A stretch of DNA of 64,000 bases, taken from NCBI RefSeq assembly GCF_000518725.1, contig NZ_KI912486.1, forward strand, positions 126,916-190,915, given 5' to 3'. The first letter of the stretch is position 1, and every line of letters starts with the position of its first letter. Positions 3,954-32,730 of the stretch are shown one piece after another. Source of the stretch: Mesoplasma seiffertii ATCC 49495. Its GTDB lineage: Bacteria > Bacillota_I > Bacilli_A > Mycoplasmatales > Mycoplasmataceae. A model generated the notes under the pieces. The model was not told the origin of the DNA, made no database searches, and saw only the letters and a list, made by a program, of their open reading frames with translations. A program made the translations under genes and the position numbers.

Positions 3954-5780
3954 CTAACTCATTAATCCTGCTTGATAAAGATTTTGGAAATGCCCTGGAG
4001 TATTGATTAACTCATCAAAAGATCCTTGTTGAACAATCCCTTTACCATTTGCTCCAAGAACAATGATTTGATCAACATTTTTAATTGTTGATAAACGGTG
4101 GGCAATTGTCACACTAGTACGGTTTTGCATTAACTCGTCTAATTTAGCTTGAATTTCTTTTTCAACAATATTATCTAATGCTGAAGTTGCCTCATCTAAA
4201 ATTAAAATCTGTGGATCTTTTAAAAACATTCTCGCAATTACCAAACGTTGTTTTTGACCTCCAGATAACATAAATCCTCGTTCTCCAAGAACTGTTTTAT
4301 ATCCTTCTGGTCAGCTCATAATTAAACCATGTAGTTCGGCTTTTTTACATGCTTCAATTACATCATCATCTGTAGCTTGAAAACTTCCATACTTAACATT
4401 TTCAAAAACATCACCAAATAAAATTTGAGGGTCCTGTTCGACATATCCTAAATGTTGCAGATAACTTTCCAAATTAAGATCTTTCAAATCGTATTTTTTA
4501 TTAATGACAATTTTCCCTTTGCTTGGATCATAAAGTCTTAATAATAACTTAGCAATTGTTGATTTACCTGAACCAGTTTCTCCAACAAAAGCATATGATT
4601 TACCTTGCTCAAATTTAAAATTAAATTTTGGTAGAATTTGTTTTTCAGGTTTTTCTGGATAGTTAAACTCAACATCTTTAAACACAATGTCACTAGTAAT
4701 TTTTTTAATTTTGATTCCATCATTATAGTGAAAATTCATAATTGAATCGGCTTGTAATGTTGTACTAATTCTAGCTGATGCCACTCCAGCAGAAGCAAAT
4801 CCTCCTGACATATTCAGTAAAGTAAACAACGGACCAATTAGCAACCCTTGTGATAAAGAGTACGCTGCAAAAGTATTTTTGAAAAAGTCTAATGTTTGTT
4901 GTGAGTCTCCTGATGAGCCATAAAAGATAACTGCAAAGATAGGAGCAGTAAAAGAAATAATAAAATCTCCTGCAAAAACAACTGTAAATAACAACGATAA
5001 TCAACTAGCAACTGGTTTTGTTTGTTCAAAATAATCAACGTGTTTAGCTTTGAAATTTTCAGTTTCATAAGCTTCAGTTCCCGAAGCTTTAATTAATCTA
5101 ACCGAAACAATTCGATCAATTACGTTACCATTTGTTTTTTCCAAAGTTTGACGAACTCTTTCATATCGATTAACTAACATTATGTAAACGAACACAAATC
5201 CACTTAAAATAACTATGAATAGACCTGTCCCTACAAGAGCGATTTTTCAATCTAAAATAAATGTCATTGTAACAGCAATCGCAATTTGAAAAACTGAAAT
5301 AATTCCTCCAACAGGAATATTAATTGCTCAATCACTAACAAACTTTGAATCAGATATTACATTAGTTAAAAGTTCTCCAATTTTTTTGTCAGAGTAATAC
5401 GAGATATCTTGACGAACTAATTTTTCTAAAATACGATTTCGTAAGTCTATTTCAATACGTATTGCCATTAAGTATCCTAAGTAGTTAATTGCAAAAGTAT
5501 TAATTGTGTTAATAACAATTGAAATTGCCCCAATTAATACTAAATAAGGTCATGATAGATTTCAATAGCTTGTAATAAAAGACGACCCAACAGTTTCGGT
5601 TGCAAAGTCTTTAGTCAAGTCCATGTTAATTTGTTGAGTTAACAATGGAATCATCATCACAGTGATACCGTAAATTAAAATCAACGGCATCATTAAAACA
5701 CTTAATTTTCATTCTTTGACATAATAGCGAAAGATGATTTTGAAAAACTCACTATTTTTTGATATTTTTCTTTTTCCCAT
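3954..5780 (-). CDS. ABC exporter half-transporter (membrane plus ATPase), copy D
   Basis: 608 residues. N-terminal half has about six membrane segments of the ABC exporter fold, including the conserved [20 protein letters not shown] coupling region; C-terminal half is the ATPase with Walker [11 protein letters not shown]-loop YVEQDPQ, signature LSGGQKQR, Walker [13 protein letters not shown] and H-loop AHRLST. TGA codons split the frame if read as stops. It follows copy E by 16 bases with AAGGAG ahead, so E and D form one transcript and probably a heterodimer. Substrate unknown; family members export lipids, drugs or peptides. Confidence 0.9.
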
Positions 5781-5796
5781 AAGTTCAACTCCTTTC

Positions 5797-7638
5797 TTAA
5801 CCTTGTTGGGTCATTAGACCTGCATTATACAAGTTTTTAAAATGCCCTGGTTTGTTAACTAATTCTTCAAAGGTTCCTTGTTGAACAATTCCCTTACCAT
5901 TTGCACCAAGAACAATAATTTGATCAACGTTTCTAATAGTTGATAAACGGTGTGCAATTGTCACGCTAGTACGATTTTTCATTAACTCATTTAACTTAGC
6001 CTGAATTTCTTTTTCAACGATATTATCCAACGCTGAAGTTGCTTCATCTAAAATTAAAATTTCTGGGTTTTTTAAGAACATTCTTGCAATTACTAGACGT
6101 TGCTTTTGACCTCCAGATAACATAAATCCTCGTTCACCTAAAATTGTTTTATACCCTTCTGGTCAACCAGAAATTAAGTCATGAATTTCGGCTTTTTTAC
6201 ATGCAGCAATGACTTCTTCATCACTAGCGTCAAAACGGCCATAGCGAACGTTTTCATAAACATCTCCAAATAAAATTTGTGGTTCTTGTTCAACATAACC
6301 AACGTGTCTTAAGTAAGAAGCCAAATTTACATCTTTAAGATTTTGATTTTTATTAATAATGATTTCTCCACTGCTTGGATCATAAAATCTAAGTAATAGT
6401 CTCGCAATTGTTGACTTTCCTGAACCAGTTTCTCCAACAAAGGCATATGATTTTCCCTCTTCAAATTTAAAACTAAATTTTGGAAGAATTAATTGTTCTG
6501 GTTTTTCGGGATATCTGAATTCAACATCTTTAAAGATAATGTCGCCTTTAATTGATTTGACAATATTTTCTCCAAAGTAGTTTGGATCTAAAATTGATTC
6601 AGTTGCAATTGTTTCAGAAATTTGCGAAGCTGCAACTCCAGACATTGCTAGTCCAAATGAAGAGTTCAATAAATTATATAGTGGTCCAATTAAAATCGCT
6701 TGAGCTAGCATATATGATGCAAATGTTGTTCCAAAAAAGATTTTTGCTTTTTCGGGATCATTACCTAAACCATAAAAGATTCCGGCAAAAATTGGTGTTG
6801 ATAATTGAATAATACATTCCCCTGCGAAAATAATCGTTAACATTCACGACAAACTAATTGCAGTCGGTTTTTGTAAACTATAATACTTCTGATGAGTTTC
6901 TTTAAATTTATTTGTTTCATAAGCTTCAGTTCCTGTTGACTTAATTAATCTAACTGTTGCGACTCTGTCAGTAACATTTCCATTAACTATTTCAATTTCT
7001 TCCCTGATTTTTTCATATTTTTTAACTGTATTTTGGTATGCAAATATAAACGCTATACAAATAATTACAAAAACTGTAAATCCCGCTGCAGCTATTTTTC
7101 AATCAAAAATAAATGTCATAGTTACAGCAACAATAATTTGAGAAACTGAAATTCCGATTGAAGACGGAATTGTAACTGCTCATTCTCCTACCACTTGAGT
7201 ATCAGAAACAACTTTTGTTAAAATTTCTCCAATTTTTTTATCAGAATAATAAGAGATATCTTGACGAACTAACTTTTCTAAAATACGATTACGTAAATCG
7301 ACTTCAATTTTACGTCCTAAAATATAACCATAATAACTAAATACAAACGTTGCTATAACGTCTAACAAAATTATCGCTACTGCGATATAAATACATTCAG
7401 TTCAATGTAGCCCTCAAAAATTTGCTGGGATTGGTTCAATATTTCCTACATTTTCGTTTGCTTCTTGAATGATACTCATAGTCATTTGTTGAGTTAACAT
7501 TGGCACCATTATTCTCGTTAATGCAAATAAAATAATCATTACTAGCATTAATGAAACTAATTTTCATTCTTTTAAATAGTATTTTCAAATTACTTTAAAA
7601 AATTCACTATTTTTTGATATTTTCTTCTTCCCACTCAT
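5797..7638 (-). CDS. ABC exporter half-transporter, copy E
   Basis: 613 residues with the same architecture as its downstream neighbour: exporter membrane domain, then ATPase with [29 protein letters not shown] and AHRLST. AAAGGAG precedes the ATG at 7638. N-terminal [15 protein letters not shown] resembles [14 protein letters not shown] of copy D, evidence of a recent duplication. Both nucleotide-binding sites look intact, so an active heterodimer or two homodimers are possible. Substrate not predictable. Confidence 0.9.
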
Positions 7639-7805
7639 AAATTCTCCTTTGAATGATATGAAACTTTAAACTACTCTTAATATTCAAAAGAACTGTTTAT
7701 TCTGCTTAATTATTTTTTAATTTGCTCATTTTTATACACATCATTACCAATTAAAATTGGCTTTAAGTCAAGTTTAACACAATCATAATTGAATTACTTT
7801 AAGCT
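7639..7805. other. Intergenic region upstream of the E-D exporter operon
   Basis: No gene. Contains the ribosome-binding site of copy E and a CCAATT-AA-AATTGG inverted repeat near 7748-7761, which could be an operator or a remnant hairpin. A clear -35/-10 pair was not found. Confidence 0.3.
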
Positions 7806-7833
7806 ATAAAAAAATTAGCATTTTGCTAATTTT
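7806..7833 (-). terminator. Rho-independent terminator after exporter copy F
   Basis: AAATTAGCA (7812-7820) pairs with TGCTAATTT (7824-7832), followed on the minus strand by a run of U. It starts right after the stop codon of copy F. Confidence 0.8.
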
Positions 7834-9660
7834 TTAATCCATTAGTCCGGCTTCATATAGTTTTTTAAAATGTCCCGGAGTATTTTTCAATTCTTCAAAA
7901 GTTCCTGTTTGAACAATTCCAGCTCCATTTGCTCCTAAAACAATAATTTGATCTGCATTCTTAATTGTTGACAAACGGTGGGCAATCGAAACTGTAGTTC
8001 TCCCAACCATTAAAGTTTCCAACTTTTCTTGAATTTCTTTTTCTACAATGTTATCTAAAGCTGACGTTGCTTCATCTAAAATTAATACTTGCGGATTTTT
8101 TAAGAACATTCTCGCAATTACCAAACGTTGTTTTTGGCCTCCAGACAACATAAACCCTCGTTCACCTAAAATTGTTTTGTAACCCTCTGGTCAAGTTTTT
8201 ACTAAATCATGTAACTCCGCCTTTTTACATGCTTCAATAACCTCTTTATCTGTTGCTTCAAAAGTTCCATAGCGAACATTCTCAAATACATCACCATACA
8301 TAATTTGCGGCTCTTGTTCTACATAACCAATATGTTTTAGGTAACTCGCCAAATTTAAATCTTTTAAATTTTGTGTACCATTAATTAAAATTTCTCCCTC
8401 AGTTGGGTCATAGAATCTCAATAATAATTTAGAAATCGTTGATTTACCCGAACCTGTTTGACCTACAAATGCATAAGATTTTCCCTTTTCAAAAACGAAA
8501 TCAAATTTCGGTAAAACAGTTTTAGTTGGTTTTTCAGGATAAGCAAAACTCACACCTTTAAAAATAATATCTCCGTCAATTCCAGCAATTTCTTTTCCAT
8601 CAAAATAATGTGGATCCATAATTGATTCCGAGTTAATGGTCTCATTAACTCTTGAAGCAGCAACACTTGCTTGAGCTAAACCAAATGCTGCATTCATTAC
8701 ATTAAATAACGGCCCAATCATCATTCCTTGAGCTAAGGCAAACGCTGCAAAAGTCACTGTAAAAAATGTTTTGACTTGTTCAGTGTTTCCCGAATTCCCA
8801 AAAATTAACATTGCTGCAATAATTGTGGAAAATTGTAATAGCGAAACTCCTCCAAATAAAGTTGTCAGCATTAACGCCTGCATTCTCCCAACTAGTTCAG
8901 ACTTTGAGTAATACTCTTGATGCACTTCTTTAAATCTTGCAGTTTCATAATTTTCAGTTCCTGTTGATTTAATTAATCTAACTGTCGCAATTCTATCAAT
9001 AACATTACCGTTAATTTCCGTAATAACTGCACGTACTTTGTGAAAACGTTTTGTAGTTACATTAAATGTCAAATACATAATTAACATAATTGTTGCAAAT
9101 GTCACTAACGCTACTAACGCTAATTGTCATTGCAAAATAAACATCATCATTAAAGCCGCAATAATTTGGAAAACAGAAATACCAATTAGCATTGGAATCA
9201 TGACTGATTGATCTCCAACCATTTGAGTATCTGATACAACTTTTGTTAAAATTTCACCGATTTTTTTATCTGAGTAATATGAAATGTCTTGACGAACAAG
9301 TCTTTCTAAAGACCTATTTCTTAAATCAATTTCAATTTTCTTTCCCATCAAGTATCCGACATAGTTAAATAAATATGAACAGATACAGTTAACAACTACT
9401 GCGGAAATTGCAATATAGACCAGCTTATCTCATCCAATCCCTCAAAAGTTCGGTGAGGGTTCTACACCAGCTTTTTCGCTCATAATAGACATGGTCATCT
9501 GGTTTGTAAGTAGTGGAATCATTAATCCACAAGCAACGATAAAAATCATTAATGTTGCAATTACGATTGTAAACTTTCACTCTTTGATATAAAACTTGTA
9601 AATCATTTTTCAAAAAATCTTGTTTGATTTTTGATTTTTCGCTAATGTTTGATTCTTCAT
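7834..9660 (-). CDS. ABC exporter half-transporter, copy F
   Basis: 608 residues. N-terminus [19 protein letters not shown] then six-helix exporter domain and an ATPase with Walker [10 protein letters not shown] (Gln where the sister copies have Glu), [20 protein letters not shown] and AHRLST. The start at 9660 has AAAGGG upstream. It is separately transcribed from copies E and G, with its own terminator. All catalytic residues are present. Export substrate unknown. Confidence 0.9.
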
Positions 9661-9876
9661 TGTATCCCTTTCTTGTTTAGCAGTTTTACACAATAAAAAT
9701 ATCAACTACATCTTGATTAGTTTTTTATTGCACATTGCCTGTTAAATTTTATTATTATTTCACAAATTTTGACTTACTTAATTTTTTTATACTTCATAAA
9801 TTGATTTTCCTTAGGAGTAAAGACTACCATCTATTTTTTAATTATACCAATTAAACATTATAAACAAAATTACTCA
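9661..9876. other. Intergenic region upstream of exporter copy F
   Basis: About 215 bases, very AT-rich, no open frame with a ribosome-binding site. It presumably carries the promoter of copy F on the minus strand, but I cannot pick a convincing -35/-10 pair. Confidence 0.3.
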
Positions 9877-9909
9877 TAAAAAAATACTTTAATTGCTTAA
9901 AGTATTTTT
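9877..9909 (-). terminator. Rho-independent terminator after exporter copy G
   Basis: AAAATACTTT (9881-9890) pairs with AAAGTATTTT (9899-9908), with U-rich sequence beyond it on the minus strand. The loop is eight bases. Confidence 0.75.
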
Positions 9910-9912
9910 TGA

Positions 9913-11922
9913 TTAGTCCATTAATCCTGCATTGTAAAGTTTTTGGAAATGTCCTGGTTTATTTTTCAATTCATCAAATGTTCCTGTTTGAACGATTCCG
10001 GCTCCATCAGCTCCTAGAACAATAATTTCATCGGCATTACGGATTGTTGATAAACGGTGGGCAATAGAAATAGTTGTACGATCAACCATTAATAATTCAA
10101 GTTTCTCTTGAATTTCTTTTTCCACAATATTGTCTAAAGCAGATGTCGCTTCATCTAAGATTAGCACCTGAGGATCTTTTAAAAACATTCTCGCAATAAT
10201 CATACGTTGTTTTTGACCTCCAGATAACATAAATCCTCGTTCACCTAAAACAGTGTCATAACCGTCTGGTCAAGTCATAATTAAATCATGCAATTCAGCT
10301 TTTTTACATGCTTCAATTACTTGTTCATTTGTAGCATCAAAACGTCCATAACGTACATTTTCATAAACATCACCAAATAAAATTTGAGGATCTTGTTCAA
10401 CATAACCTACATTATATAAATAACTTGATAAATTAATATCTTTTAAATTACTTTTACCATTAACAATAATTTCACCCTCAGTTGGGTCATAAAATCTTAA
10501 CAGTAATCGTGAAATAGTTGATTTACCAGATCCAGTTTCTCCAACAAAGGCATATGAACGCCCCTTTTTAAAAGTGAAGTCAAACTTAGGTAAAATAGTT
10601 TTTGAAGGTTTTTCAGGATAAGCAAAACTCACACCCTTAAACTCAATATCTCCTTCAATTGAGTCAACAATTTCTCCATCGAAATAATGAGGATTTAAAA
10701 TTGAAGTTGAACTAATTGTTGAATCAATTCTTTGTGAAGCAACTGATGCTTGAGCAATTCCAACAGCTGACATTACAACTTGAAATAATGGTCCTACCAT
10801 GATTCCTTGTGCTAGTGTAAATGAAGCAAATGTTCCCATAAAAAAGCTCATAGCTGCTCCAGAATGAATAGCATCAGCATTTCCATATCTCAACATTGCA
10901 ACTCCAATAGAAACAAATTGAATGAAGCTAATTCCTGAAAACAAAATTGTTACCATTAACGCTTGAACTTTTGCTAATTTTGTTGCTTCTGCATAATAAT
11001 CTTTATGTAAATTTTTAAAACGTTGTGTTTCATAGTTTTCTGTTCCTGTTGCTTTAACTAAACGAACAGTTGAAATTCTATCTGTCACATTTCCATTAAT
11101 ATCTGTAACGATTTCACGAACATTACTAATTCGTTTTTTAGTAAATCGAAATGAAATTGTCATCGCTACTAAAATGATAAAGAACATTCCTAAAACACAT
11201 GCTGCTAACACTGCTTCAAAAACAAACATCATTACTGATGCTCCAATAATTGTTAAAACAGCGCTTAACAAAGTCACTGGGACTTGAGCTGATTGATCTC
11301 CAACTATTTGAGTATCTGATATTACTTTAGTGATAATCTCTCCAATTTTTTTATCAGAATAATATGAAATATCTTGTCTAACTAACGCTTCTAATGCTTT
11401 ATTACGCAAATCAATTTCAATTCTTTTTGAAAGCAATACAGAAACAAATTGTGATAAAAATGAAACTACCGCATTTCCAATAACGATTCCTAAAGCTATT
11501 GAAAGTGTCGCTTGTCAACTTAGTCCCCAAAAAGCAGGGTCGCGAGTGTATTCTTTGGCACCTGGTAATTTTGCCACTTCCTGCGCAATTTTATCAGAAA
11601 TGTCCATTGTCATTTGACGAGTTAATAATGGAATTGCCACTGAGGCAATTACTGAAATAATAGTTAAGACAACAATAATTGTTGCTAATCTTCATTCAGA
11701 TTTGAAATATCTCCCAATCATAATGAAAAAAGTTCCTTGAGCCTTTGATCATTGAATATCTTTTTCAACCAGTACAGCTACTGCTGCATCATGTTCTTCT
11801 TGGGTAATTTGCTCATTATGCAAACGTGCATCTAAAATTTTTACTTCCTTTTGAAACTCTTCATTACGAATTTGACGCTTCTCAGAATTTACTGTATGTT
11901 TTTTCTTCATATTCTTACTCAT
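9913..11922 (-). CDS. ABC exporter half-transporter with N-terminal extension, copy G
   Basis: 669 residues, about 60 longer than its three sisters. The extra N-terminal part (roughly residues 1-60) is charged and helical and precedes the first membrane segment. The ATPase shows [34 protein letters not shown] and AHRLST. Start chosen at the first in-frame ATG (11922); the ribosome-binding site is weak (AAAAGAA), and ATG at 11910 is an alternative. Reads as a single gene only with TGA as Trp. Separate promoter and terminator from copy F. Substrate unknown. Confidence 0.88.
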
Positions 11923-19747: not shown

Positions 19748-21115
19748 ATGGAAAATTTTAAAAATTATGCAAAATCTTTAAATATTGAAAAAACCAAGTT
19801 TGTTGGTCATGAAGTGTCAGAAGCAGACGCTCAGATCTTAAAGATATTTACCGAAAATCATGAAGAAACTAATTCTTTAAAAGGTCTTGGATTTGTTATT
19901 TTTAATCAAACCCCATTTTATGCAATGGGTGGTGGTCAAGATAGCGATAAAGGAACTTTATCATTTAATGGAGTTGAATTTGAATTAGAAGATGTTCGTA
20001 AAGATTTAATTTATGGATACTACATTCACCAAATTAATACCGGAGATCAAGAACTAAAAGTCGGTGACCGTTTATTTTTAAAAATTGATCAAACATATCG
20101 TGATCGCTCATCAATTAACCATTCAGCTATGCATACAACATGACAAACAACTTTAAATGAAGCCGGTCATTACATTGAAGAGTTGGGAAGCAAATTAAAC
20201 GATGAAAAGTATCAAGTTCAATTTGTTGTTGATGAAGCAATTACGGAAGAACTAATTTTAAAAGTTGTTAATAAAATTAATAATGAAATAATCCCTCAAG
20301 ATATTAAAGTAAATATTTTTGAAGTTACCCAACAAGAAGCAATTGAAAAAGATTATTTATTTGAATTTACTAAACTTGTTGGTGACGAAATGGTGCGTAT
20401 GGTTGAATTCCCGGGAATTGTTATTGAACCATGTAGTGGAACTCATGCTAAAAGCACTAAAGAATTATCACAAGTTTGGTTTTTAGTTTATGATAAAAAC
20501 TCTAAGCGTATTTTATTAGAACTAACTACTAATGCTGAATATGCAACTAAATTCTTTAATGAAAAGTTAATTGACCGTTTTGAAGAAATTAAAGCTTTTA
20601 TTAAAAAGGGTTATGACAATGGATTAACTTATGATTTTTCTGAAATAACAAATCGTTGTGAAGAATTAGTTAAAATTTGAAATCCTTTATCAGTCAAAGA
20701 AATAAATTTATTACATAACAACGTTACACTAATTGTTAATAAATATTTAAAAGAACGTGAAACAGAAATGATTAAAAATTTTGCTTCTCAAGTATTGCCT
20801 TTTGAAATTATCAATAATAAATTTAAGCTAATTACTTTGACTGACGAAATGTATACTAACAAAGTTTTAATGGCTAAAGCATCACAAGAAGCTAATGAAG
20901 ATGCTGAACACATTATCATTTTAGCGAATAAACATCAAACAGGTGCTAACGTAGTTATTATTCGTAATAAGAACTTAGATATCGATCTTAAAGAATTTAA
21001 TGCAAATGTAATCATTCCTCAAACTACTTTTAAAGGTGGCGGGACTAACTCAATGATTCAGCTTGTTTCTCAAAACTCTGAAGATATTGAAATTCTTAAA
21101 AATCTTTTAAAATAA
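19748..21115 (+). CDS. Stand-alone alanyl-tRNA editing protein (AlaX-L type with DHHA1 domain)
   Basis: 455 residues. It resembles the editing and C-terminal halves of alanyl-tRNA synthetase without the catalytic core. Zinc ligands of the editing site are visible as HSAMH (HxxxH) near residue 121 and CSGTH near 236. The C-terminal FKGGGTNSMIQL fits the DHHA1 glycine-rich motif. It should hydrolyse Ser- or Gly-mischarged tRNA-Ala. The start is the ATG at 19748; the ribosome-binding site (GAGAG) is weak. It lies on the plus strand against the general orientation of this arm and ends in a two-way terminator. Confidence 0.8.
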
Positions 21116-21143
21116 AAATGTGCCTAATTGGGCACATTTTTTA
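21115..21143. terminator. Bidirectional terminator
   Basis: AAAATGTGCC (21115-21124) pairs with GGCACATTTT (21131-21140), ending the editing-protein gene and the convergent MATE gene. Confidence 0.88.
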
Positions 21144-22589
21144 AATAGTTTTAGCATATTTAAATCATTTACGCTTAAATCATCTAATCGCATAAATAAT
21201 CGATCTTGAAATTGGATCCAACGAAATCACTAAATAAATTAAAATCAAACCAACTCCCGGTGTTCCAATAAAAGTTAAGGTAATAATTCATGGTAATGCA
21301 ACCATTCCAATAATCATTGTGAAAATTGAAATCATTAACGGAACTCAAAGATCTCCAACTGACCATAATGCTCGTAACAGGGTCATGTTTACTGTATCGA
21401 ATAAGCATTTAATGAAAATAATTGCATATAAGTAAAATCCATAATTTACAATTAAGTTCTTTGGAGTGTTATATGCCAATAGCAGCGGATATATTAAACT
21501 AAAAATGAATAACGATAAAATCAATTGAGCATAAATCGCGACTTTTCAGCAATCTACTCCTGCTCTAAAAGCTCCATTCAAATCACCCTCTCCAATTTTT
21601 TTGGCAACTAAAATTGAAGTAACCGTCGCCACTGCTTGTAAAAATGTTGTTGAATACTGAATTATTGCATTAATACTTCGATGCAAATTTAAGAGATTAT
21701 CAATTGTTTGTTGATCTTCACTTAAGTGCCCAATGGCACCATTCATTGCAAAGTTGCAGACATTTCATAAGCCTATTTCTAAAGTTATTGGTAATCCGAT
21801 TTTGATTGTTTCAAAAGCAAACTTGCTGTTTATCAGTGTTTTAAAAGTAGCCCCACGATAATCAATATACTTAAAGTTAATCACAATCATGTAAACCATT
21901 TGGACAAGCCCTGCAATTGGCATTGCAAATGCGGCTAAGACGGGATCTATCTTTAAAATATACAGAACCATACAAACAACAAAGACATCAACTATATTTG
22001 AAATAATTGCTCCAATTGCAACATGTCGTTGCTTTTTGAGAATTTGTAATCCCGCAATATATACTTGTGCAATTGACAAAATAAATAAATTTAAAACAAT
22101 AATTCTAAAGTACAAACTCGTAAATTGAAGGTTTGTATCATATTGATGAGTTGAGCCCAAAATACTTTCGTTTCCAGCACCTAAAAAAACTAATAAGCTA
22201 TTGGCAAAAATTTGCATTAACAAAATAACAAACAAAGAAATAATTACATTAACTACTACTCCAGTTGTAATTACTTTTGATAATTCTTTTTGTCTTCCTT
22301 GCCCGTATAAATTTCCTCCAACAACAAGAGTACCTGAAGCAATTAACGATGGAATAAACTGTATCGTTGTAAATAATAATGTAGCTCTATTAATCGACGC
22401 TAGATACAGTCTTTCATCGTATCAACTAAACAGCAGGACATTAATTTGAGCTATAATTGCGGCAAAAAATAATTGCAAAAAAATATGTCCGGTTAGGGCT
22501 AAAATTTCTTTTCAATTATTTGGATAAAAGCGATTTTTTCGAATAAAGTTAAGATTATTTTGTGTATTGGTTTCAATGTTAGTAGTCAT
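21141..22589 (-). CDS. MATE-family efflux transporter
   Basis: 482 residues with about twelve hydrophobic segments in two repeats, several TGA-coded Trp. LVVGGNLYGQGRQKELSKVI in the first half and SILVAKKIGEGDLNGAFRAG in the second are the matching MATE repeat motifs. Likely Na+ or H+ driven export of cationic compounds. Start at MTTNIETN, with AAAGGA upstream. Stop overlaps the terminator stem. The P-type ATPase homologue upstream has its own terminator, so this is probably transcribed alone. Confidence 0.85.
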
Positions 22590-22624: not shown

Positions 22625-22648
22625 ATAAAAAAGGGACACAAGGCCCCG
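22625..22648 (-). terminator. Rho-independent terminator after P-type ATPase homologue
   Basis: On the minus strand GGGGC pairs with GTCCC around a five-base loop, followed by TTTTTT. Confidence 0.7.
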
Positions 22649-22650
22649 TT

Positions 22651-25398
22651 TTATAACCATTTTTTAAATAACTTAAGATATAGTATTTTTCAACCGTCAA
22701 ACATAAATAGCGCAACAAACCATGTTGACAAAATCATTAAAATTCATTGTCAATTTGATCTTGCCAAATCAAAGATGATTTCTGTTCCAGGAATCAATGG
22801 TAAGCAAAAAGCAATTACCGCAACTGTTGTTAAACAAATTGTTGTTGGTTTAGCCGGAAATTCTTTAAATCATGGTTTAAAGTGATTACACATAACTAAA
22901 CAGAATACTACATTTGTTATGGTATCTTCTAGTCAATACATCGCTTGAAACTCTAATAGTTTAGATTCATAACCAGGAACTTGTTGACGAATATCACCAA
23001 TAATTCCTGGATGAGTAACTAAACCAATCATCAAAATATTAAAAATTGCAATTATTTGAAATAGTACACCATTCCAAATAGCAAAAGGAATAATTGACTT
23101 AGTATCTCATCTAACTGGCTGTTCTACATAACGAGCATCTAAATTATCAGAAATAATTGAAAACTGCACGGCATTTAAAAGTAAGTTTTGAATTAACAGT
23201 TGAATTGCGCTCATTGGTTCATGATTAATAATAAACATTCCCAATAACAATTTAAATGTTAACGAAATTGCACTAGTGATTTTAAACTTTACAAATTTCA
23301 TCACATTCATTAGGGCTTTACGGCTTTCATGAATAGCAATTGAAATTGATTCAAGATCTCGTTCTTTTACCAGTAAATTAGCACAATTTTTCCCAAAGCT
23401 ATCTGAAGAGGTTGTTGTAATACCAATATCTGCTGCTAATAATTGATTGGCATCTTCAATATCTTTTCCTAAAAATCCAACTGTGGATTTATTCTTTTGC
23501 AAAACTTCAATTACTTTAACTTGAGCTCGCGAATCCATATTATAAAAAAGATTAACTTTGCTCAAGCATTTTGTTAATTGTGAATCACTTAGTTGATAAA
23601 TTTCTTCAGCACTAAGACTCTCTTTAATGGTGTAATTTAAGGCCTTAGCAATTACATTGGCATCATCTAAAGAACCACGAGTAAAATACTTAATATGGAC
23701 TTTTTCCTTGCGAATATTTTTTATAAAATTTTGTGAATTAGTTTTGGTTTTAATTTTATAATTGATTAGTCCAACAAAGGTATAGTTACTTGAAGTTATT
23801 CGGCGTTTTTGAAGATCATCAAGTGGTTGAATTGCGACTGCTAATGATTCAATATGATTTTCTAATAAATCAATAAAAGAAGCTTGAATTTGATTTCGCT
23901 TACTTGTAGTTAAATTATAGTTAAGATCATTGTATTTAAAATAGCGACAACGATTAAGAATATCAGAACGTGGTCCAATTAAAATTGCTAACTTATTGCC
24001 TTTTAAGTCTTCTACAATAGTGGTTTTAATATTATTTATATCTGCTTCATAACTTTCAATAAACTTATAATCTCGCTTCACTTGCAACTTAATTTGCTCA
24101 TATTCGTCAGCTTGTTTCAGAATTTTTAGTTGACGTTCATCAATGACTATTTCATTTTTTAAACCTAAAATAGCCATTGCTAAGGCATCAAGGTTTTTTT
24201 CAAAATAAACATCTGTAATTGATTTCAATTTTAATTCATTTTTTAGAAAAACTGATTCAAAGTCAATTGTTAAAACGTCCATTGAACCAATATTTTGAGC
24301 AACGGAAGTATCACGAGAAGTGATTTCTTTGGCACTTAAATTTTTACGAACCCTTGCAAAAGCGGAGGCTAAAATTAAGGGTAATGCGTCAGGGGCAAGC
24401 GCTACAGCAATTGCCATCGCAAAAATCATCGCTTCAATTCACACAAATGGATTGCTAAATCCCTTTTGCAGTCCCGTTAATCCGGATGCTAATAAAAAGA
24501 TAATCGGTACAAAAATAACTATTGTCAATATTAATATTTTAGTTACCTTACCAATTTGCTGATTAAATGTTGTATCTGGTTTATTATCCACTTGAGTTTG
24601 TTTTTTATGACCAAAATATGTTTTGCTACCTGTAAATAAAACAATCGCTCAACATTCACCACTTTTGACTTGTGATCCTCGATATAAAATATTATCAAGT
24701 TTGAAAATATCTTTACCTTTGTAAAAATTTTCTGAATCTTTGGTAATTAATGTACTTTCTCCAGTTAATACTTGTTGATTAACAATTAAGTCATTTACAT
24801 AAATAATTTGACAATCAACTGGGATAATATCTCCTTGAGCAAAATAAACAATATCGCCTTTATATATTTTTTCATTTGGAATTAGCGATAAACTGCTTTT
24901 AAAATTTTCAGCGTCATTAACAATTTCTTCAAGCAGTTTAATTTGAGGTAGATTTCTTAAAACCTTAACTCGATCACGCTGCTTGGAAATAATTTTTTGA
25001 TTATTTCTATAAATTGAATATGAATTTCAAAGTTGAAACCCTGTTGAAGAACTTATTAAAAAGATCACTAAAATTCCTCCCGCAAGAGAAGCATAGTCTT
25101 TAGGGTTAAGTGCAAACATTAAAAAGTTATAAAAAATAATTAGCAGCAAGATAATTGCAAAAACATCGCGCAAAGATTTAAATAGGTTTTGAAAAAACTT
25201 TCAATTGTCATTTTTAGAACTAAACTTTTTCTTATTTTGAAAATTAACAAATTTTGTATTTAATACAGTTGAGGGACTATTAAGTTTTTTAAGAGTTTTT
25301 TCTGGTTGTTGATTTGCGTAAGAAATAATTTTTCTTTCGTTTGATCATTTCGGTATTCGAAAACTTTTAGGTACTTTTTTAGTGGCGCTTTTTTTCAT
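22651..25398 (-). CDS. P-type ATPase homologue with degenerate catalytic motifs (MgtA-like)
   Basis: 915 residues, uninterrupted with TGA as Trp. Membrane and actuator parts look normal: TGES at about 212-215, and PDALPL in place of PEMLP in the M4 helix. The P domain does not: MDVLTIDFESV near 379 replaces MDVLCTDKTGT, so the aspartate stays but Lys-Thr-Gly-Thr are gone; DPP-K becomes INYK (about 545), TGD becomes TRG (about 573) and GDGxND becomes GKDIED (about 644). The linker between 379 and 545 leaves room for only a small nucleotide-binding domain. Family: magnesium-type P3B by overall pattern. ATP-driven transport seems impossible; a sensor or regulatory partner is a guess. AAGGAT precedes the ATG. 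Confidence 0.8.
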
Positions 25399-25447
25399 CT
25401 TTTATCAATCCTTATTTCTATTTAAACACATTATAGAAATAATGAAA

Positions 25448-26254
25448 CTATTTTTCATAGGCATTATAAAGTTTAATAAAATCTTCAATTCCGATAACTT
25501 CAGGTCTTAAAGTTTTATTAATTGAAACTTCATCTAATAGTTGATGAGCTTGTTCTTTATTTGTAGTTAATGTTGAAAGATTATTTAAAATCGTTTTTCG
25601 CTTATTATTGAATAATTTTCTAACAAAAGCGATAAATTTATCGCTATTTTTAACTAATTTTAAATTATCAGTTTTAAAGGTTAACGAAATAATTGCTGAA
25701 TCTACTTTTGGAATTGGTCTAAACATTCCCTTATTAACAGTGAATTCATATTTTTTATTAGCAAAAAACTCAGCTGCTATTGATAAGTTATTATAATTGT
25801 TTTCCCCTTTATTGGCGCAAACTCTCAACGCAACTTCTTTTTGCATCATAAACACGGCTTTTTCTAAATATGAATGTATTTTAAATGTTCTAAATAAAAT
25901 TTCACTTGTAATGTAATAAGGCATGTTAGAAATTAGAGAAACTTTTTGTTCAGGATAAGCGCGATGTTGATTAATTAGTTTTTCAAAATCTACTTCTAAA
26001 ACATCAGATAAGAAAAATACAAAATTATCATCTTTAATTTTGCTTTTTAAAATTGGCTCCATATCTTGATCAATTTCGATTGCTATAACTTTAGAAAAAG
26101 TTTTAACTAGTTTCTTAGTTAAAGCTCCAGTTCCTGGTCCAATTTCAATAATTAATTGATCGTGATTTTCTCCTAAAGTAGCAATAATTTTATTAATTAA
26201 ATTTTCATCACTAATGAAATTTTGTCCAAACTTTTTCTTTGCCTGTATTTCCAT
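25448..26254 (-). CDS. rsmA: 16S rRNA dimethyladenosine methyltransferase
   Basis: 268 residues. FGQNFISDENLINKI start, SAM-binding EIGPGTGALT, acidic AIEIDQDM and the catalytic SNMPYYIT (NLPY-type) motif are all in place. It dimethylates two adjacent adenosines near the 3' end of 16S rRNA during 30S maturation. AGGAG lies inside the end of rnmV, whose stop is one base from this ATG, so the two are translated together, as in Bacillus. Confidence 0.95.
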   Translation of the reverse strand: MEIQAKKKFGQNFISDENLINKIIATLGENHDQLIIEIGPGTGALTKKLVKTFSKVIAIEIDQDMEPILKSKIKDDNFVFFLSDVLEVDFEKLINQHRAYPEQKVSLISNMPYYITSEILFRTFKIHSYLEKAVFMMQKEVALRVCANKGENNYNNLSIAAEFFANKKYEFTVNKGMFRPIPKVDSAIISLTFKTDNLKLVKNSDKFIAFVRKLFNNKRKTILNNLSTLTTNKEQAHQLLDEVSINKTLRPEVIGIEDFIKLYNAYEK

Positions 26255-29411: not shown

Positions 29412-30734
29412 TAAAACTTCAACGACTAATTTGAAATTTTTATCAGTATTAATTAGATTTTCAATTTTATTAACTGCGTTGATAACAGTTGTATGATCTT
29501 TACCACCAAATTCATTACCTATTTGAGACAAAGAATGATTTAAAATGTTTTTAACTAAGTACATTGATAAGTGGCGAGCATTAGCAATATTAGCCGTACG
29601 AGCTTTTCCATCAATTGACTTTACAGAAACACCGTACTTTTCACCAACAATTTCTTTAACTTTCTTGACATTTAAAATCCCTAAATTTGCAGTAGAAACA
29701 TCTTTAAATAAACTTGAAATAACATCCATGTTTATTTCTGCAGATGGTTCGTTTTGAATTCCTCAAAAACTAATTTTTGAAATTGATCCCTTGATCTTAC
29801 GGACATCATCAGCATAGTAAGTTGCGATATAGTTTAAAGCTTCATAAGAAATTTGTTGTTTAACACCTTGCATTTTAATTTCGGCTTTAGTGATTAAAAC
29901 AGCAGTTTCAAAATCTAAAGTTTTAATTGAGGTTGTTAATCCCATATCAAAACGGGTAATAATCCGCTTATCAAACCCATTTAAATTATCCGGAGATTTG
30001 TCACTAGAAAACACTAGTTGTTTATTATTTTCAATAAAGTGATTAAAAATTGTAAAGAAAATTTCATTAGTCTTTTCTTTTTTTGCCAAAAACTGGATGT
30101 CATCGATTAAAAGAACATCGTATGACATAAGTTCTTCTTTAAAAGCTTCAATAGCATCGTGGTCTTTGTATAAAACATCAACAACCCGTTTGATTAAAGA
30201 CTCACTTGATAAAAATAAAGTCTTTAATTCAGGCTTTTTCTCTGATATTTCGTTATAAATTGCCTGCAATAAATGTGTTTTTCCCAAACCAGAATCACCA
30301 TAAATAAATAAAGGAATATATTGTTTTCCGGGATTATGTGCAATCATTTTTGAAGCAAGAAAAGCTTGCTTATTGCTTTCACCTTCAATGAAATTGTCAA
30401 ATACAGCAGAATATTTTTTGGTAGGTATTTTTGTTACTGTTTTTGCAGCAGCAATTTCTTTAAGTTGCTTTTGATTTTCTTTGTATTGAGCAGCAGTCAT
30501 AAAATTAAAAATTACTAAATGACCTAAATGTTTTTTAATTTCTTTAACAATAACGTCTTTTAAAGGAGTAATAACTCTAATAGCGAATTGTGATTTAACA
30601 ACTAAGTTATATTCGTTTTGATCATTTCTAACTAACTTTGCAGTTGTGATGTAGTCATTGTAAACTTCTTCATCAACAATTTCGCTGGTTGAAAGTGACT
30701 CTTTAATTTTTAATCATAATTCAGTTTCATTCAT
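29388..30734 (-). CDS. dnaA: Chromosomal replication initiator protein
   Basis: 448 residues. Domain I at the N-terminus (MNETELWLKIKESL), AAA+ domain with Walker A GDSGLGKT and Walker B VLLIDDIQFL, sensor II region, and the C-terminal DNA-binding signature GGKDHTTVINAVNKIE. Binds the DnaA boxes on either side of its gene and melts the origin. AGGAGAA precedes the ATG at 30734. Two TGA codons encode Trp, the first at residue 7. Terminator overlaps its 3' end. Confidence 0.97.
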
Positions 30735-31038
30735 AAAGTTATTCTCCTAACGTGTTTAGATTATAAAATAATTAACAGGTAAAAACTTTTAAAATGTTAA
30801 TAAAATTGTTTTTGCTAACAGATTAATAAGACTAAGTTTTTAGATAAAATAGATTTTTCCAAGTCCGATTCTTATTTTCCACTTTTCCACATTAGACGTT
30901 TTTTATTGGGGAAAACTTTTGTAAAAAAAACTTTCTGGGGAAAAGACATCATTTATTTAAAATTCCTAATTCAAAACAAAGAGTTTTCATATATAATATT
31001 TATTGAAATTGTCTAAAAAAGGAGGATTGACGAAACTT
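30735..31038. other. oriC: Replication origin region (oriC), dnaA-rpmH intergenic
   Basis: 304 bases without a gene. TTTTCCACT (30875-30883) and TTTTCCACA (30883-30891) are adjoining DnaA boxes; TGGGGAAAA at 30907-30915 and 30936-30944 are degenerate boxes on the other strand. AT-rich stretches on both sides could serve as the unwinding element. Gene orientation switches here from minus to plus, and dnaA and rpmH flank it as in other Firmicutes and Mollicutes. Confidence 0.8.
30970..30997 (+). promoter_or_regulatory. rpmH promoter
   Basis: TATAAT at 30992-30997 with TTCAAA at 30970-30975, spacing 16. Transcription would start about 35 bases before the rpmH start codon. Confidence 0.6.
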
Positions 31039-31173
31039 ATGAAAAGAACTTGACAACCATCAAAAATTAAAACTGCTCGTACTCACGGTTTCAGAGCGAG
31101 AATGGCTACTAAAAACGGAAGAAGAGTAATTAAAGCTCGTAGAGCTAAAGGTAGAGCTAAATTATCTGCTTAA
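31039..31173 (+). CDS. rpmH: 50S ribosomal protein L34
   Basis: 44 residues: [18 protein letters not shown] start and [19 protein letters not shown] core are nearly invariant in L34. The Trp is encoded by TGA. GGAGG at 31021-31025 is 13 bases from the ATG, longer than usual; the in-frame TTG at 31027 is too close to it to be the start. First gene of the rpmH-rnpA-yidC group at the origin. Confidence 0.97.
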
Positions 31174-31193
31174 TGCTTTAGATAGAAATCTTG

Positions 31194-31526
31194 ATGAAGA
31201 ACAAAAGAATTATCAAAGGAAACTTTGATTTTCAAAATATAATCTCTAAACAAAGAACCTTAAAAAATGTTTCTTTTGTTGTATATTTTGAAAAAACAGA
31301 AAACAATTTCTTAGAATATGGAATTAGTGTTGGTAAAAAAATTGGTAACGCTGTTATAAGAAATAAAATTAAGAGACAAATTAGAATGATGATCAATGAC
31401 ATTATTCAAACAAATAACGGTGACAAAAATTTCCGAATCGTTATTATCGCTCGAAAAGCAATGTTGGAAAAAGATTTTGAATTTAACAAAAAAGCTTTAA
31501 CCAAACTAATTGAGCAACTTAAATAG
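31194..31526 (+). CDS. rnpA: Ribonuclease P protein component
   Basis: 110 residues. The RNR-type motif appears as VIRNKIKRQIRMMI near residue 60, with basic residues for RNase P RNA and pre-tRNA leader binding. Assists the catalytic RNA in 5' tRNA maturation. Start ATG at 31194; the TTG just before it is also in frame. No good ribosome-binding site lies upstream, which suggests coupling to rpmH 20 bases away. Confidence 0.92.
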   Translation: MKNKRIIKGNFDFQNIISKQRTLKNVSFVVYFEKTENNFLEYGISVGKKIGNAVIRNKIKRQIRMMINDIIQTNNGDKNFRIVIIARKAMLEKDFEFNKKALTKLIEQLK

Positions 31527-31542
31527 AAAGGGGTATAACCTT

Positions 31543-32730
31543 TTGTATAAAGCAAATAACAATGTTATGAGTTATCTTAATCCACAAAAAATGGGTAAAG
31601 GTAAAGCTACAAAAAAAGAAATCTTATTAAAAGTTTGAAAATGAACTAAAATTTTAGGGTTTTTATTCATTATTATCTCTATGCTATGAGGATGTGTACA
31701 AATGTACCAATCTGAATACATGGTGCAAGAAATTTTAGATATGACAGGTAATAAAGTTATTACCCCCGGAGTTTCATTTGAAATTGCGATTCGATCATTA
31801 GGAGACTTACCTGGAAAAGACCATATTATTATTGGTAATGGGGTTGATGCTTCTGAATACGGTTACAATGTTATTACTAGTTGGGGAGAAGCCTTCAGTA
31901 AAACTGGATCTCCATTTTATGGATTCTTCGTATATCCAACAGCGTTTGTATTAACAGGAATCATTAAAGGATTTGCTGGAACACTGCAACCAGGATTTAG
32001 TAATAGTGAACAAAGTAAATACGGAGTTTCTGTATTCTTTGGAATCTTATTTACTGTGGTTATTATTAAGTCAATAACTTTAGCATTTACATGAAAATCA
32101 CAGAAAAATCAGATTAAGATGCAACAAATGCAGCTAAAACAAGCGGAAATTCAAGCAAAATATAAAGATAAAAAAGATCAACTTTCAAAAAGTAAACAAC
32201 AGCAAGAAACAATGGCGTTGTATAAAAAAGAAGGAATTTCTCCAATGTCATCAGTTGCTGGAGGATTTGCTTCAATGCCGTTCTTATTTGCGATTTACGC
32301 AATCGTTAGATCAACAAGAGCATTGAAAGTTGCCAATATTGGTCAAATTTCATTGGTTGCTAAACCTTGAGAACAAGTAACAAATGGAAATTGAATTTAC
32401 TTTACTTTATTAGCAGTTTACTTACCATTGCAAATTATTTCGATGTTGTTACCAACATTGTTGCAATACCATAAACAAAGAAATATTACTTTGACTGAAG
32501 CTCAAAGAAAAGCACGTAAAAAACAATTAATCTTACAATTAGTAATGATGGTTGTATTCATCTTCATTGTCGCATCTGTTGCGTCAGGGGTTGCAATTTA
32601 CTGAATTATTTCTTCAACATACCAAATTTTCCAAACACTTGGATTCCATGTTTATAACCAAAAACATATTAAAACTGGAAACCGAGAAAGAGAAAGAAGA
32701 CTTCGTCAACAAGCGAAACAAACAAAATAA
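31543..32730 (+). CDS. yidC: YidC/OxaA membrane protein insertase
   Basis: 395 residues from a TTG start at 31543, nine bases after GAAAGGGG; ATG at 31567 is a later alternative without a good site. A first hydrophobic segment ends in LWGC, a possible lipobox as in Bacillus SpoIIIJ. Then a large outside loop and the conserved core of five helices with SPMSSVAGGFASMPFLFAIY and the basic cytoplasmic tail (NRERERRLRQQAKQTK). It inserts membrane proteins with or without SecYEG. Follows rnpA by 16 bases. Confidence 0.93.

Follow-up and report, generated by a model that had tools for sequence, protein, structure and literature searches.

The Locus

By the window we mean the whole stretch of 64,000 nucleotides from Mesoplasma seiffertii ATCC 49495 that was analysed. 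On its minus strand, between rsmA and a gene for a MATE-family transporter, lies a gene for a relative of the P-type ATPases, which are textbook pumps defined by a phosphorylated aspartate. The protein, called here a pseudo-pump, has had its catalytic motifs replaced. Its frame is open from the ATG at 25398 to the stop codon at 22653-22651; the intact frame of 915 codons reported by the first-pass annotation was thus borne out when genetic code 4 was used, and only the strand had to be added. The features around it are as follows.

21141..22589, minus strand: MATE-family transporter gene downstream of the pseudo-pump gene, with a likely start at 22589 (own AAGGA) and not at 22718
22633..22647, minus strand: terminator-like hairpin GGGGCC..GTCCC with TTTTTT, directly 3′ of the pseudo-pump stop codon, a consensus match
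22651..25398, minus strand: pseudo-P3B-ATPase gene, open reading frame containing 11 TGA codons read as Trp
25409..25413, minus strand: Shine-Dalgarno sequence AAGGA, 10 nt 5′ of the pseudo-pump ATG, a consensus match
25430..25458, minus strand: promoter-like site ATGAAA-17-TATAAT between rsmA and the pseudo-pump gene, a consensus match only
25448..26254, minus strand: rsmA (ksgA), upstream of the pseudo-pump gene with a gap of about 50 bp

Promoter-like sites near the pseudo-pump gene are not more numerous than in shuffled sequences. In a close relative of the window species (G003, gyrB 96%), rsmA has neither the pseudo-pump gene nor the MATE gene beside it. Elsewhere in the window, four tandem paralogous ABC exporter-like genes for proteins of 608-669 aa occupy positions 3957-11922 of the minus strand, and the plus strand at 19748-21115 would encode a stand-alone 455-aa protein that, judged by its sequence, resembles alanyl-tRNA editing proteins of the AlaX type, has no aminoacylation domain, and is kept in G003 (74%). 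dnaA and dnaN are found at about 30734-32000, and the GC skew changes its sign near 32 kb, as expected of a replication origin.

A P3B-Type Pump without Its Catalytic Motifs

To which family does the window protein belong? The P3B/MgtA profile TIGR01524 matches it at E=5e-104 with 348.8 bits, which is under the curated cut-off of 610.75, and its paralogue L003 in the same genome reaches 949 bits. Solved MgtA structures are matched at E = 8e-68, and at 7e-105 if a profile of the orthologues described below is used; the alignments to both profiles and structures run nearly end to end, while Pfam detects only the A-domain and the C-terminal membrane domains. From this whole-length homology and the order of its A-P-N and membrane domains, the protein is to be regarded as a member of the P-type ATPase superfamily by descent, and it falls outside the equivalog definition of TIGR01524, that is, a Mg2+ pump.

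When the genomes of the family and of the order were searched, five orthologues of the pseudo-pump were found (in G001, G002, G059, G004, and G005), so that the clade has six members including that of the window genome (G000). In the window protein, the letters at all the motif sites are as the first-pass annotation had read them, and the retention of D379 is to be added. The sites are listed below, all on the minus strand.

24754..24765: A-domain TGES, residues 212-215, kept in the window species and lost in the five orthologues
24376..24393: M4 PDALPL, residues 336-341, in which the ion-site Glu has become Asp337, invariant in the clade
24250..24264: DKTGT changed to DFESV, residues 379-383, of which D379 alone is retained and invariant in the clade
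23755..23766: DPPK region changed to INYK, residues 545-548
23671..23682: TGD changed to TRGS, residues 573-576, of which the Thr/Ser alone is retained across the clade
23452..23469: hinge GDGxND changed to GKDIED, residues 644-649, with G644 and D646 invariant in the clade
23251..23253: K716 in M5, invariant in the clade, and Ser/Thr in all the catalytic relatives examined

The first reading had proposed a search for orthologues with the same substitutions; the motifs are lost in all six members, each genome having its own replacement letters. DKTGT is lost in six of six except for its phosphorylated Asp (D379), which none of them has given up, and an intact copy of TGD or of GDGxND is found in none. 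TGES, noted as kept, is kept only in the window species, its position being SGDA, TGDN, NGAK, TGSN, or TGLT in the five orthologues. Where pumps have the first hinge Asp, which binds the catalytic Mg2+, the clade has K, R, S, or A; the Lys of motif III is Gln or Glu in every member, and the residue at D+2 is E, N, E, E, A, and D across the six. Residues for ATP contact have gone as well: the adenine-stacking F445 (MgtA numbering), the Lys of KGA (Ile in two members and Arg in four), R616, and the P-domain Lys are lost throughout. Catalytic relatives aligned with the clade keep DKTGT, TGD, and GDGxND and have PE[MAS]LP as their M4 motif, and when 40 further relatives were checked, motifs were flagged only in two truncated frames and one LSGD variant. 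In E. coli MgtA, the single replacement D373N abolishes hydrolysis (PMC10925321). Given the known biochemistry of the superfamily, these losses of motifs and ATP-contact residues make it not credible, as far as residues can tell, that the pseudo-pump would bind ATP and transfer its phosphoryl group by the normal route.

Conservation under Selection

The five orthologues span three genera of one family; G001, which corresponds to Acholeplasma (now Tullyiplasma) multilocale, and G002, which corresponds to Mesoplasma photuris, belong to the same genus as the window species, and G004 corresponds to Mesoplasma lactucae. All frames are about 910-934 codons long without stops. Identity to the window protein ranges from 33 to 50%, the closest orthologue standing at 50%, and among the orthologues it is 30-58%. 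Among the 320 genomes of the order, the clade profile gives these six more than 1330 bits and no other listed match more than 508; no additional orthologue was found with the same profile in a class sample of 395 genomes, and a search of genome contigs with the window protein as a single sequence gave no match.

Nei-Gojobori dN/dS is 0.24 for G000-G001, 0.33 for G000-G002, 0.34 for G001-G002, and 0.18 for G004-G005, four closer pairs whose dS of 1.3-2.0 approaches saturation; G000-G059, the most distant of the pairs computed, has 0.53 at dS 1.2, the least reliable value. Catalytic paralogues from the same genome pairs give 0.10-0.34. Between G004 and G005 the pseudo-pumps are 57.7% identical and the MgtA-type paralogues 75.7%; changes have accumulated somewhat faster in the pseudo-pump than in its catalytic paralogues, but the constraint is of the same kind. 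In a neutral simulation, 0.1 substitutions per site were enough to bring about 10 in-frame stops, and none of the 200 runs was stop-free. Neither the match to MgtA nor the open frame can be put down to chance. The pseudo-pump clade is under purifying selection.

In addition, residues have become invariant in the clade that differ from those near-invariant in the catalytic relatives: the M4 Glu is replaced by D337, the hinge Gly by D646, another Gly by S692, a Lys by R362, a Leu by F347, and the M5 Ser/Thr by K716. We take these new clade-specific residues as a sign that the protein has acquired a new function. The earlier proposal that this gene is selected for a non-catalytic role and not simply decaying thus stands, since DKTGT is intact in none of the orthologues and dN/dS lies well under 1.

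It might still be supposed that a copy which has recently lost its function is on its way to decay; the gene is missing from the close relative G003, and it evolves faster than the catalytic paralogues, as the G004-G005 comparison indicates. However, six intact orthologues with identities down to 33%, stop-free frames, the low dN/dS of the closer pairs (0.18-0.34), the new invariant residues, and the presence of promoter-like, ribosome-binding, and terminator-like sites leave next to no probability for this explanation. What a decaying gene looks like in these genomes can be seen at G015:C1:5100-6581, where the frame of a MATE homologue is interrupted by 22 TAA/TAG codons; it is clearly a pseudogene, while the pseudo-pumps are intact.

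The Membrane Ion Site

MgtA holds membrane Mg2+ with E331, N706, N709, D738, S776, and D780 (PMC10925321). In the clade, N706, N709, and D780 are lost in six of six members and D738 in five of the six; E331 has become D, N709 is L/I, D738 is N/S (D in one member), S776 has given way to Q/L/V, and D780 is A/M/S/H/N. M3-M6 rank with the most conserved regions of the pseudo-pump, and its membrane segments keep their hydropathy. A structure prediction from a four-sequence alignment had low confidence (pLDDT 39.7, pTM 0.26). In other P-type ATPases, a Lys of M5 takes the role of a built-in counter-ion (PMC10654040). By analogy, K716 in M5 may play the part of a cation near D337 of M4 and hold the old ion site in one state; because the site would be fixed in this way, the protein would be neither a pump nor an open channel.

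A Second Pseudo-Pump Clade

Among low-scoring relatives, a second degenerate P3B clade was found in three genomes, and no further member was found in the order.

G009:C62:2664-5351: second-clade member L103
G008:C1:785759-788434: second-clade member L105
G055:C1:222173-224836: second-clade member L107

Like the main clade, these have the P3B fold, long open frames, and no TGES or DKTGT; in G009, G008, and G055, respectively, TGES is RGKM, RGKD, and RGSK, and DKTGT is NKTGS, DVKGV, and NKSGP. Unlike the main clade, they keep the Lys of motif III, the M4 Glu, the M6 Asp, and GDGxND in part. In a quick tree with long branches, built with the motif columns removed, the main dead clade has an SH-aLRT of 100% and the second clade is grouped away from it, near catalytic L002-like sequences, also at 100%. 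A single origin of both clades was rejected (p-AU 0.012), a test weakened by the long branches and the quick tree. Since the second clade is of separate origin, catalytic loss happened at least twice in mollicutes. Another P3B protein, L106 (G054:C1:256379-259033), has TGES changed to SGKQ and an altered DPPK region, and its DKTGT, TGD, and GDGKND are intact; it is ambiguous and a possible intermediate.

Neighbors and Candidate Partners

In G059, G004, and G005, the pseudo-pump gene is directly 3′ of a YhgE/Pip-like gene and RibF-like and Nfo-like genes follow; in G059 a MarR gene lies 5′ of YhgE, and in G009 of the second clade the order is MarR-YhgE-pseudo-pump. The neighbor matches TIGR03061 and TIGR03062 with E values of 1e-6 to 1e-26, below the curated cut-offs, and in G009 only the C-terminal Pip domain (TIGR03062) was detected. 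In total, four of the nine pseudo-pumps adjoin YhgE. On the other hand, the YhgE-RibF-Nfo region has no pseudo-pump between its genes in G000, G002 (with a few other genes inside), and G056, the pseudo-pumps of G000, G001, and G002 are at three different places, none of them beside YhgE, and YhgE is present in 40 of the 60 family genomes, most of which have no pseudo-pump. The pairing is not obligatory. When coordinates were compared by eye, no catalytic P3B gene was found beside YhgE. The three linkages of the main clade probably come from one ancestral event, so that, counting shared ancestry, the adjacency amounts to two independent cases, which is suggestive but not conclusive. YhgE/Pip (TIGR03061/TIGR03062) is a protein family different from the pump and is a candidate partner only.

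The MATE transporter was also considered as a partner, since its gene is 3′ of the pseudo-pump in the window and near it in G004. It was rejected: the MATE gene stands beside rsmA in G002 without the pseudo-pump, and many genomes have MATE and no pseudo-pump; it is probably not part of the system. In G001, three relatives of the ABC exporter-like genes of the window are directly upstream of the pseudo-pump gene (L076).

Another candidate had been put forward from the start, that is, an active paralogue. Each of the six clade genomes does carry a catalytic P3B paralogue (L002 and L003 in the window genome), but P3B-type matches occur in all 60 family genomes, the sole one of G009 being its pseudo-pump, and therefore their mere presence says little on partnership. 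In MgtA, the N and P domains hold two protomers together as a dimer (PMC10925321). Of the interface residues K382, E582, Q380, P546, P547, and K548, only K548 is kept throughout the clade; the K382 position is E, N, or D and P547 is lost, while E582 and P546 are absent also from mollicute MgtA orthologues. A conserved MgtA-type dimer was rejected for the dead clade on these residues. As this interface is lost and catalytic P3B is nearly family-wide, the case for the paralogue as a partner is no stronger than that for YhgE.

What Is Left for a Pump That Does Not Pump?

Since the catalytic residues are replaced and yet a full-length protein is preserved in six species, the pseudo-pump has a non-pumping job. 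What could it be? Binding is the most economical job that remains. The P3B fold would be whole, while normal ATP binding, the making and breaking of the aspartyl phosphate, and cycling would be lost, and such a protein could be a static subunit that regulates or scaffolds another membrane protein, for which a YhgE/Pip-type exporter, or a catalytic P3B paralogue in a heterodimer, might be the partner. By analogy with the MgtA dimer and the PH1/PH5 pair described below, a binding role is plausible, and we give about an even chance that the pseudo-pump is non-catalytic and acts by binding another membrane protein. A more specific version, in which pseudo-pumps that arose at least twice control or build a YhgE/Pip-type exporter and the Asp-Lys pair takes the place of the ion in the main clade, is doubtful as it stands.

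Could the HAD domain instead, with D379, the Thr/Ser of TGD, and D646, bind Mg2+ or phosphate and signal through the helices without transport, as an ion sensor or transceptor? The invariance of D379, G644, and D646 and the retention of Thr/Ser in all six speak for it, and cytoplasmic Mg2+ sites of MgtA have been proposed as sensors (PMC10925321). Yet the membrane ligands have mostly gone, the hinge position that should hold the catalytic Mg2+ is K, R, S, or A, and there is neither an output domain nor a conserved regulator partner; we find this explanation unlikely. The magnesium sensor of the first-pass annotation in particular found no specific support, as most of the Mg2+ ligands are replaced and nothing ties the protein directly to Mg2+. 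The same retained residues, the Asp of motif I and the Thr/Ser of motif II, together with a motif IV Asp displaced by one place, would also suit an enzyme of another kind, a HAD phosphatase or phosphotransferase working with D379 and D646. Against it, the motif III Lys is Gln/Glu throughout, the ATP contacts are missing, and D+2 offers no common acid/base, which makes such an enzyme very improbable. The good conservation of M3-M6 and the preserved membrane hydropathy might rather indicate that the ten-helix membrane part moves a solute without ATP, as a passive channel or a secondary transporter. This is quite improbable: the ion-site residues have turned into A/S/T, L/I, and N/S, the M5 Lys should repel cations, and the large A, P, and N domains, which a channel does not need, are under constraint.

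That a full pump without its ATP chemistry is kept under selection shows that the fold has another use, and a profile score alone may class a protein as a P-type transporter although it is non-catalytic. Because small genomes of this kind encode catalytic paralogues as well as pseudo-pumps, they offer a natural separation-of-function set for asking which roles the cytoplasmic domains have apart from hydrolysis. Moreover, the question is testable, since hosts such as Mesoplasma lactucae and M. photuris are type strains in culture and have small genomes. If the exporter-control reading of the pseudo-pump were true, a new kind of membrane regulator would have been made from the pump fold.

Comparison with Known Systems

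Pseudoenzymes such as pseudokinases and iRhoms, in which the fold is kept, the catalytic residues are lost, and selection retains the protein, are the general class that the pseudo-pump resembles, as it too has a fold without catalytic residues under selection. Among P-type ATPases no pseudoenzyme was found in the open-access literature, a scope that excludes most subscription journals. The best match by profile and structure is MgtA/MgtB (TIGR01524; PDB 8uy7, 9ejn), with which the window protein shares length and domain order; it differs from them in that all the catalytic and ATP-contact residues and most of the Mg2+ ligands are replaced, and in having the M4 Asp for Glu and the new M5 Lys. 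For the binding role, the closest precedent is the plant P3B ATPase PH1, which is reported not to transport H+ by itself but to bind the proton pump PH5 and enhance its activity (PMC10654040). What is shared with the proposed reading of the pseudo-pump is a P3B ATPase without its own H+ transport which works by binding a P-type pump. PH1 is, however, a eukaryotic vacuolar protein for which the review cited does not describe degenerate catalytic motifs (PMC10654040), and the partner of the pseudo-pump is only putative.
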